From positions 1,484,657-1,548,656 of the forward strand of contig NZ_VCNI01000001.1 of assembly GCF_005937185.1 (NCBI RefSeq): a stretch of 64,000 nucleotides of DNA. Reading direction: 5' to 3'. The notes below the pieces were generated by a model. The model made no database searches and was not told the DNA's origin. It was given only the letters and a program-made list of their open reading frames with translations. Origin of the DNA: Flagellimonas algicola (GTDB lineage: Bacteria > Bacteroidota > Bacteroidia > Flavobacteriales > Flavobacteriaceae). The translations under genes were made by a program, and so were the position numbers. Shown in pieces: positions 2,751-50,319 of the stretch (position 1 is the stretch's first letter; each line of letters opens with the position of its first letter).

Positions 2751-4190
2751 ATGGCGCAGGAATTCCATAAAAAGGTACTAGAAAATCCAATTTTTAAGAT
2801 CATTGGTGAAGCTTCCAAAGAATTAGGCTTGGATTCCTATGTTATTGGTGGATTTGTCAGGGACTACCTGCTTCAAAGAGGGGCTCCAAAAGACATTGAT
2901 ATTGTTGCCGTGGGAAGCGGGATAAAATTGGCTGAAAAAGTAGCTTTGAAGCTACCGGGTAAACCTCAAATTTCAGTTTTCAAGAATTTTGGGACCGCCA
3001 TGATCAAACACCAAGATTTTGAGCTTGAATTTGTGGGAGCACGCAAGGAAAGCTATTATAGAAATAGCCGTAAACCAGTGGTGGAAAACGGGACTTTGGA
3101 AGATGACCAAAATAGGAGAGATTTTACCATAAATGCCATGGCATTGGACCTTAATCCTGAAAATTTTGGGCTTCTTTTGGATCCTTTTGATGGAAGAAAA
3201 GATTTGGAACAACAGATTATCAGAACTCCGCTTGAACCCGACACCACGTATTCCGATGACCCGCTTAGAATGATGCGCGCCATTCGGTTTGCGACCCAGT
3301 TGAATTTTACCATTGAACTACGCTCTCTTCAGGCTATTTCTGAAAACAAAGACCGCATCAAAATTATTTCGAAGGAACGCATTGTGGGTGAGCTGCATAA
3401 AATTCTTTCGAGTAATAAACCTTCAATCGGTCTTGGATTAATGCATCAAACCGGACTTCTTCCCTACATCTTACCTGAATTGACCGCACTTCAGGGCATT
3501 GAGGAAATTGAAGGGCAAAGACATAAAGACAATTTTTGGCATACCTTGGAAGTAGTGGACAATATTGCCCAAACCACAGATAATCTTTGGTTGCGATGGG
3601 CCGCTTTGTTGCACGATATTGGCAAAGCTCCTACCAAAAAATTTCACAAAAAAATTGGCTGGACATTCCACGGCCACGAATTTGTCGGTTCCAAAATGGT
3701 GTACAAACTCTTTAAACGCCTAAGGATGCCCCTGAACGAAAAAATGAAGTTCGTGCAGAAAATGGTGCTCATGAGTTCCAGACCCATTATTTTGTCTGAA
3801 GAACATGTAACGGATTCTGCAGTTAGGCGGTTGGTCTTTGACGCAGGAGAGCACGTAGAAGATCTAATGACCTTATGTGAGGCGGATATCACCACCAAAA
3901 ACCCCAAAAAACAGAAAAAGTACAAGAACAACTTTAAGATTGTACGACAAAAAATTGTGGAAGTAGAAGAGCGGGACCAAATCCGAAATTTTCAACCTCC
4001 TGTTTCTGGGGAAGAAATCATGAAAGTCTTCAATCTTAAACCATCCAAGGAGATTGGAATCCTAAAGGATGCCATCAAAGAGGCCATTTTGGAAGGGGAA
4101 ATCCCCAATGAATATGAAGCAGCCTATCAATTTATGTTGGAAAAAGGGAAACAAATGAATCTTGAACCCGCTGCGGATGAAAAAAAATAA
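2751..4190 (+). CDS. cca: CCA-adding tRNA nucleotidyltransferase with HD domain
   Basis: 479 residues. Class II nucleotidyltransferase that builds or repairs the 3' CCA end of tRNAs. The head has GGFVRDYLL and KDIDIV (metal-binding aspartates), then RRDFTINAMALDL, the nucleotide-choosing region. A central HD phosphohydrolase-type domain has HTLEVVDN and LLHDIGKAP. Length suits the Bacteroidota HD-bearing group, usually annotated as HD domain/CCA tRNA nucleotidyltransferase; a poly(A) polymerase activity is the main alternative. Starts 1 base after tsaC ends and overlaps ctaA by 14 bases. Confidence 0.92.
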   Translation: MAQEFHKKVLENPIFKIIGEASKELGLDSYVIGGFVRDYLLQRGAPKDIDIVAVGSGIKLAEKVALKLPGKPQISVFKNFGTAMIKHQDFELEFVGARKESYYRNSRKPVVENGTLEDDQNRRDFTINAMALDLNPENFGLLLDPFDGRKDLEQQIIRTPLEPDTTYSDDPLRMMRAIRFATQLNFTIELRSLQAISENKDRIKIISKERIVGELHKILSSNKPSIGLGLMHQTGLLPYILPELTALQGIEEIEGQRHKDNFWHTLEVVDNIAQTTDNLWLRWAALLHDIGKAPTKKFHKKIGWTFHGHEFVGSKMVYKLFKRLRMPLNEKMKFVQKMVLMSSRPIILSEEHVTDSAVRRLVFDAGEHVEDLMTLCEADITTKNPKKQKKYKNNFKIVRQKIVEVEERDQIRNFQPPVSGEEIMKVFNLKPSKEIGILKDAIKEAILEGEIPNEYEAAYQFMLEKGKQMNLEPAADEKK

Positions 4191-48733: not shown

Positions 48734-48928
48734 ATGAGTAAAGGAACAGTAAAATTCTTCAACGATTCAAAAGGCTACGGCTTTATCACTGAAGATGGTT
48801 CAAACACAGATCACTTTGTACACGTTTCAGGTTTAATCGATGAAATTAGAGAAGGTGACGCAGTAGAATTCGAACTACAGCAAGGTAAAAAAGGATTGAA
48901 CGCCGTAAATGTACAAGTTATAGATTAA
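48734..48928 (+). CDS. Cold shock domain protein (CspA family)
   Basis: 64 residues. Begins MSKGTVKFFNDSKGYGFI (RNP-1 KGYGFI), then DHFVHVSGL (RNP-2-like) and the closing GLNAVNVQVID. Binds single-stranded nucleic acid and melts RNA structure. It has its own terminator; two tiny membrane ORFs follow. The 5' flank has TACCTTCG about 30 bases before the ATG, a near match to TAnnTTTG. Confidence 0.96.
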   Translation: MSKGTVKFFNDSKGYGFITEDGSNTDHFVHVSGLIDEIREGDAVEFELQQGKKGLNAVNVQVID

Positions 48929-48954: not shown

Positions 48955-48980
48955 AAACCCGAGCTATATGGCTCGGGTTT
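48955..48980 (+). terminator. Rho-independent terminator of the cold shock gene
   Basis: AAACCCGAGC-TATATG-GCTCGGGTTT, a 10-base stem followed by TTTTG, 26 bases after the stop. Confidence 0.95.
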
Positions 48981-49082
48981 TTTTGTTTACATTTTTCTTT
49001 TACAGTTACGCAACCTCTCCAACTTTTTTTATCTAAAGACTAAACACCTATTGTTCCCCATAACCATTAAACAAAAAATTAC

Positions 49083-49169
49083 ATGAATACCTTCTTTGCC
49101 ATTCTCTCGGTTTTGTTGGCCATCAACTTGCTTTTATTGCTCATTAGTGTTAATAGTTCAAAAAAGTAG
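49083..49169 (+). CDS. Tiny single-helix membrane peptide A (28 residues)
   Basis: ATG 49083 to TAG 49169. The peptide starts MNTFF, has a hydrophobic core of about 18 residues with a central Asn in LLAIN, and ends SVNSSKK, i.e. a short N terminus, one membrane helix and a basic tail that would stay in the cytoplasm. It is paralogous to peptide B just downstream: both share TFF, LLA, N, LLL, SVN and SK at the same positions. A-rich sequence (AAACAAAAAATTAC) precedes the ATG, as usual in this phylum. Function unknown. The conserved pattern between the two copies is the main evidence that it is translated. Confidence 0.62.
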   Translation: MNTFFAILSVLLAINLLLLLISVNSSKK

Positions 49170-49250
49170 TACAATATAGTAGGGTATTTCTTCGTTCAAT
49201 TGTTACTCAACTGAAACAAAACACGAACTGAATAGCTAAATCCATTGACT

Positions 49251-49334
49251 ATGGGCACCTTTTTTACCGTACTGCTTTTATTACTTGCGCTCAACTTCTG
49301 CTTATTGCTGGTGAGCGTGAACAGATCAAAATAA
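49251..49334 (+). CDS. Tiny single-helix membrane peptide B (27 residues)
   Basis: ATG 49251 to TAA 49334. Starts MGTFF, core LLALN then CLLLV, ends SVNRSK. Against peptide A it is identical or similar at most positions with one residue difference in length, so the two arose by tandem duplication. Its DNA differs from copy A mostly in ways that keep the protein pattern (for example GTTAATAGT versus GTGAACAGA for VN-S/R), which suggests selection on the peptide. A bidirectional terminator follows 2 bases after the stop. Confidence 0.62.
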   Translation: MGTFFTVLLLLLALNFCLLLVSVNRSK

Positions 49335-49336
49335 AA

Positions 49337-49360
49337 AAAAGCTTCCTTTTGGAAGCTTTT
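49337..49360. terminator. Bidirectional terminator
   Basis: AAAAGCTTCC-TTTT-GGAAGCTTTT, a perfect 10-base stem with A-rich and T-rich flanks on both sides, between the tiny ORF B stop and the convergent immunophilin gene stop at 49387. Confidence 0.92.
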
Positions 49361-49386
49361 CTTCTACATGCTATTTCGAAGTTGGA

Positions 49387-50319
49387 TTACTTCACATTCA
49401 TCAATTCCACATCAAAAATCAAGGTTGCATCTGGAGGAATAACCCCACCGGCACCGGCACTTCCGTAGGCCAAGTTGGAAGGAATCACAAAACGTGCCTT
49501 ATCTCCCACTTTTAATAGCCCTATGCCTTCGTCCCAACCAGGAATTACCTGTCCTACGCCCAATGTAAAATCTATGGGTTGATTTCTGCTGTAGGATGAG
49601 TCAAAAACCTGTCCGTTGGTCAGACTTCCTTCGTAATGTACCGAAACTGTTTTCCCTTTTTCTGCCTTGGCTCCACTTCCTTCTTGAATCATTTTGAAAC
49701 GCAGCCCACTATCTGTTTTGTCAAATCCGGCAGCAAGTTTTTCCATTTCAGCTTCTGCTTTAGCTTTGGCTTCTGCAACTCGCTTTTCACGAGCTCCCTC
49801 AAAAGTTCTGAAAGCTTCAATAGCGTTCCAGGATTCAGCTTCAGCGCCTACCCTAACAATTTCCAAACTTCCTATTGAATCGCCTTGGGCAATGGCATCA
49901 ACCACTTCCTGTCCGTGCTCCACGTTTCCAAAAACTGTATGCTTATTATCCAACCATGGTGTGGCCACATGGGTGATAAAAAATTGACTTCCGTTGGTTC
50001 CAGGGCCGGCATTGGCCATAGAAAGCACTCCAGGGCCTTCATGCGTAAGTTCTGGATGGAACTCATCATCAAATTTGTATCCAGGGTCCCCTGTTCCGGT
50101 TCCTTGCGGACAGCCCCCTTGAATCATAAAGTCGGCAATTACCCTATGAAACTTTAATCCATCATAGTAAGGATTTCCTTGGGGTTTGGCACTGTTTTCC
50201 ATATTTCCTTCGGCCAGGGCCACAAAGTTCCCTACGGTTCCCGGGGTTTTATCATGGGTTAGTTTTACCAAAACCTCTCCTTTGGTGGTATTGAATTTTG
50301 CGTAGATTCCGTCTTGCAT
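49387..50319 (-). CDS. Peptidylprolyl isomerase: cyclophilin-FKBP fusion
   Basis: 310 residues with two isomerase domains. Residues about 1-165 form a cyclophilin: [72 protein letters not shown] (FFIT and LD-KHTVFG motifs). An Ala/Glu/Lys helix linker (about 180-200) leads to an FKBP domain: [49 protein letters not shown] and [22 protein letters not shown]. Such dual-family immunophilins are known from Flavobacterium. No signal peptide, so cytoplasmic. Single gene. Confidence 0.95.

Follow-up and report, generated by a model that had tools for sequence, protein, structure and literature searches.

Two small membrane peptides with putative ECF-type promoters and a tailed paralog in Flagellimonas and other Flavobacteriaceae

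The region between csp and a peptidyl-prolyl isomerase (PPIase) gene in this Flagellimonas genome encodes two short peptides, A and B, which comparative analysis identifies as real, strongly conserved paralogous genes. The explanation that we favor, with moderate confidence, is that they are sigma-driven, tail-less helices modulating an inner-membrane complex under envelope stress.

Gene layout

The window, the whole stretch of 64,000 nucleotides that was analyzed, belongs to a 4.54 Mb genome of the Flagellimonas/Allomuricauda (Muricauda) group of Flavobacteriaceae; the nearest PPIase relatives, at ~89-93% identity, come almost without exception from organisms with these genus names. The features of the locus, in window positions, are:

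48734 to 48928, plus strand: csp, cold-shock protein gene (ORF), the upstream neighbor, outside the peptide unit
48955 to 48980, plus strand: intrinsic terminator of csp (terminator scan; stem kept in relatives)
49008 to 49036, plus strand: putative ECF-type promoter of A, ACGCAACC-N16-TCTAA (-35 box 49008-49015, -10 box 49032-49036)
49083 to 49169, plus strand: gene for peptide A, 28 aa (ORF, tblastn homologs, dN/dS 0.08)
49179 to 49205, plus strand: putative ECF-type promoter of B, GTAGGG-N16-TGTTA (alignment of 41 loci; the element recurs at an ECF sigma/anti-sigma locus)
49251 to 49334, plus strand: gene for peptide B, 27 aa, paralog of A (ORF, tblastn homologs, dN/dS 0.18)
49333 to 49364, no strand assigned: terminator stem common to B and the convergent PPIase gene (scan; conserved stem in relatives)
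49387 to 50319, minus strand: cyclophilin-FKBP type PPIase gene (ORF), the convergent neighbor that marks the syntenic site; domain type judged from sequence

Both ATG-started ORFs of an earlier note on this DNA are present as described there, with 28 and 27 residues and 81 bp between them. A translates as MNTFFAILSVLLAINLLLLLISVNSSKK and B as MGTFFTVLLLLLALNFCLLLVSVNRSK; B could also be read in a longer form that begins with a TTG at 49245, but the ATG at 49251 is the conserved start. The same note held that the DNA has diverged while the residue pattern is kept, and the two ORFs in the window indeed share 17 of 27 residues and just 52 of 81 nucleotides. The csp gene, found upstream of the peptide site in most peptide-bearing genomes (tblastn), has its own terminator, again as claimed. 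The stem after B was flagged by the scan on the minus strand alone, but the stem and its T-run are retained in most relatives, so that the proposed bidirectional terminator, shared with the PPIase gene, is reasonable. Neither csp nor the PPIase gene is co-transcribed with A or B.

Distribution, selection and a conserved helix face

With the 28-aa A query, tblastn gave one match or more in each of the 37 genus genomes searched, which puts the peptide pair far beyond chance. The usual number per genome is three: A, B and an ORF of ~60 aa, the 59-aa paralog described below. The site 3' of the PPIase gene also carries the peptide, singly or in a pair, in other Flavobacteriaceae genera, including Cellulophaga, Maribacter, Arenibacter, Zobellia, Ulvibacterium, Croceitalea, Croceivirga, Eudoraea, Pricia and Zeaxanthinibacter, some genera having kept just one of the two. 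No peptide was found at the PPIase site in Flavobacterium, Psychroserpens, Dokdonia and similar loci examined. A profile search of 396 genomes of the order gave strong matches within Flavobacteriaceae only; the weak matches outside the family were dismissed as chance, those checked lacking the syntenic genes. The peptides match no family in Pfam or NCBIfam, and an Rfam search of the window gave no match.

The absence of homologous ORFs from related genomes had been set beforehand as grounds for refutation, as had a dN/dS near 1. Homologs were found, and dN/dS, for pairs with unsaturated synonymous sites, is far below 1, at 0.08 for A (29 sequence pairs) and 0.18 for B (22 pairs). The third position is the most variable in the codons of the peptides. 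The peptides constitute an undescribed and strongly selected family.

Residues M1, L11, N15 and S22 are invariant in 50 family sequences, and F4, L8 and L18 are conserved on the same helix face as L11, N15 and S22. Over positions 4-23 the conservation moment peaks at 100 degrees, defining the face 4-8-11-15-18-22, and none of 5000 permutations gave a periodicity as strong. Such a pattern is that of a packed transmembrane helix, and the one-sidedness of the conservation makes the membrane-partner role suggested earlier probable. A is predicted to be a single transmembrane helix, oriented N-out/C-in on the basis of its C-terminal lysines.

Promoters of A and B

The motif GTAGGG-N16-TGTT precedes B in every one of the 41 aligned loci and GCAACC-N16-TCTAA precedes A in 32, most of the others being one -10 base off, where the 41 loci include duplicates because several species are present from two collections. 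The A element is also upstream of the peptide in other genera, and those with a single peptide have one element or the other in front of it. A fixed 16-bp spacing and a conserved -35 are typical of ECF sigma promoters. Since the two conserved elements are distinct and both hold this spacing, A and B appear to be two transcripts, each with its own ECF-type promoter and of two different types. The separate transcript that had been proposed is therefore separate from csp, but two transcripts rather than one. A generic sigma-70 scan gave no promoter at A or B, as expected for Bacteroidota and ECF promoters.

In the alignments inspected, intergenic conservation is confined to the two promoters, both in sense orientation, and the terminator. 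A single bicistronic A-B transcript was rejected because each ORF has its own conserved promoter, and a structured RNA between the ORFs because the conserved block there is a promoter. At a Croceivirga locus (L096, about 3573-3700), a single peptide has both A-type and B-type elements upstream, as if peptide A had been lost and its promoter retained.

Exact A-type sites elsewhere in the host genome are few, and the only recurrent one noticed beyond peptide A is upstream of trhO. The genome site search found no sigma operon carrying the A element. The trhO site lies in the recA-trhO intergenic region of the host (G000 C7:793652, L266) and of a second genome (G026, L267), and several further genomes of the genus have a site that matches it closely. 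It is followed by a terminator-ended stretch before trhO, which is possibly a second small RNA.

The ECF sigma locus and probable regulon of B

Exact matches to GTAGGGT-N-T-N12-TTGTT number 4, 5 and 6 in three genomes, and they recur before a FecR-type anti-sigma gene, a divergent lipoprotein gene, a non-coding stretch, and B. An ECF sigma gene (165 aa) lies between the anti-sigma and lipoprotein genes. Two loci with these targets are outside the window:

G000 C1:1909318-1910020 (L200, L218): ECF sigma/FecR anti-sigma unit and divergent lipoprotein gene, with the sigma gene at ~1909.4-1910 kb
G000 C1:21453-21600 (L191, L281): small RNA of about 110 nt, with a B-type ECF promoter and its own terminator

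Pfam identifies sigma-70 regions 2 and 4 in the sigma protein and FecR/FecR_C in the anti-sigma. Both flanks of the sigma/FecR unit carry the GTAGGG-N16-TGTT element, conserved across the subclade. The host's copy before the anti-sigma gene departs from the search pattern at one base; other GTAGGG-like sites with 1-2 mismatches were mostly inside coding sequence and were excluded. About 24 loci of related genera have the element ahead of these two genes, and nearly all readable loci have it ahead of both. Its position is similar across genera: the distance to the ATG is 20-24 nt for most anti-sigma genes and about 30-39 nt for most lipoprotein genes. Jejuia, Dokdonia, Aquaticitalea and Mesoflavibacter, which are peptide-less, have no B element at the best lipoprotein match. 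At least one genome, that of Leptobacterium, has the sigma locus and the element but no peptide at its PPIase site, so the regulon can do without the peptides. The element that B shares with the anti-sigma and lipoprotein genes makes B a very probable member of the regulon of this sigma, transcribed by the 165-aa FecR-linked protein.

A small RNA of conserved sequence likewise has the B element in front of it, in 24 of 24 loci examined, from several genera. The core of this RNA, TCATRTGTTTAGGTTGGTTTT (also given as ATGTGTTTAGGTTGGTTTT), hardly varies from genus to genus, and its 3' end is a terminator stem in which three pairs show compensatory changes. There was no Rfam match at threshold. 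This appears to be a previously unrecognized small RNA that would be controlled by the ECF sigma of B.

A B-type element was also seen upstream of a 55-aa membrane ORF (MDVVKEII...) in the two genomes checked, at G000 C1:589187 (L194) and in G026 (L192). This ORF is unrelated in sequence to A and B.

A 59-aa paralog with a tail

The third family member in the host genome lies just outside the window:

G000 C1:1549767 (L113), about window position 65111: 59-aa tailed paralog, 16 kb downstream

It has the same transmembrane core as A and B, plus a tail ending in KKAV. Its neighbors in nearly all loci examined are a 62-aa membrane ORF (mp62) on one side and crcB on the other, with a PII gene beyond. 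In the alignments, A and B share the core F4-x3-L-x2-L-x3-N-x6-S of this crcB-linked family, and a profile of the 59-aa family recovers the short forms. The conserved and presumably cytoplasmic tail of the family, ending in KKA(V/I), is missing from A and B, whose last residue lies 5-6 positions beyond S22.

A sigma-A -7 box, TAnnTTTG, precedes the 59-aa paralog in 30 of 34 loci, and neither A-type nor B-type ECF elements were found before it in any of the 34. The tailed copy therefore looks constitutive, and the two without a tail look sigma-controlled. Across the promoter of the 59-aa paralog runs a conserved block, CGTATA...ACGTACTTTTGCGTT, which may be an operator. This paralog with its housekeeping promoter, the two ECF-type promoters and the sigma regulon of B had all been missed by the earlier note.

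Proposed function and alternatives

A and B would be small paralogous proteins that cross the inner membrane once and are produced on demand. A would be transcribed from the ECF-type promoter described above, and B by its specific, autoregulated ECF sigma, so that two sigma pathways would each give rise to a version of one helix. This helix would pack against a membrane partner through the F4, L8, L11, N15, L18, S22 face. The 59-aa protein, with the same helix and a cytoplasmic tail, would be made from its sigma-A promoter just upstream of crcB. In the simplest mechanism, A and B would compete with or join the 59-aa protein at its partner, or at itself, and the outcome would be an inner-membrane complex adjusted under envelope stress. 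It is the shared core residues that suggest competition. The fuller scheme, in which each of two independent ECF pathways makes its own tail-less version of the helix and the constitutive tailed paralog faces competition from both, is put forward only tentatively.

The main rival is that A and B act like YohP and TisB, stress-induced peptides that insert into the membrane, lower its potential and slow metabolism, with no dedicated partner. E. coli YohP has 27 aa, is induced by SDS+EDTA, is mainly N-out/C-in and lowers the proton motive force (PMC12719787). A and B resemble it in length, single transmembrane helix, C-terminal lysines and stress-type promoter, and presumably in stress-linked expression; no sequence relation is claimed. 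However, YohP dimerizes through a glycine motif, whereas the A/B family has an invariant Asn/Ser face, with no conserved glycine in the short forms, and A and B have two ECF-type promoters and a tailed paralog. One conserved face with invariant Asn and Ser suggests specific packing, although self-association could also give this, and a paralog that carries this core under a housekeeping promoter speaks against an intrinsically damaging helix. On balance, a YohP/TisB-like action seems unlikely. The conserved face and the vertical retention would also suit constitutive accessory subunits, similar to CydX or KdpF, of a complex encoded elsewhere, with the ECF elements just adding a stress boost. 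Such subunits are improbable here: unlike the 59-aa paralog with its conserved sigma-A -7 box, A and B have no such box noticed before them, and genera freely lose one copy.

The earlier note also raised type I toxins, which would be silenced by antisense RNA. The peptides are indeed short, hydrophobic and in a tandem repeat pair, but no conserved antisense promoter is seen in the alignments around or between the ORFs. Both conserved elements are sense promoters, one of them being the ECF element of the sigma locus, and a conserved antisense RNA at A/B was rejected since only the sense promoter blocks and the terminator are conserved. The vertical, syntenic, low-copy maintenance, the strong purifying selection on both genes and the lack of Pfam, NCBIfam and Rfam matches likewise make toxin function highly improbable, and modulation of an inner-membrane complex remains the preferred explanation.

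Relation to known systems and significance

The E. coli sigma-E regulon includes the small RNAs RybB, MicA and MicL. The regulon of B is similar in that an ECF sigma/anti-sigma unit shares its promoter element with a small RNA, and here with a small membrane protein as well, but it differs in its FecR-type anti-sigma, its promoter sequence and its unrelated small RNA. The locus is also like FecI/FecR signaling: its ECF sigma is paired with an anti-sigma containing FecR and FecR_C, and a CarboxypepD_reg-like protein comes next. Unlike FecI/FecR, it has a divergent lipoprotein, a small RNA and a peptide as targets, and no iron transporter was seen at the locus.

In F. psychrophilum, the ECF promoter motif SM6 precedes YceA/TrhO (PMC9723704). 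The A element resembles SM6 in being ECF-type, in occurring in Flavobacteriaceae and in lying upstream of trhO in the host genome, but SM6 is defined by a CGT box and the A element mostly has (T/A)ATCTA. SM6 may thus point to the sigma class of A, as a lead only.

In Flavobacteriaceae, both small membrane proteins and ECF regulons are still poorly mapped. The analysis gives a precise putative promoter element for one ECF sigma, with four linked targets: the anti-sigma, the lipoprotein, the small RNA and peptide B. It also suggests that genes of 27 residues can be found and assigned to a regulon by comparative sequence alone. If the proposed competition is true, two envelope signals would be integrated at one intramembrane helix-helix interface, alongside a small RNA from one of the same sigmas.
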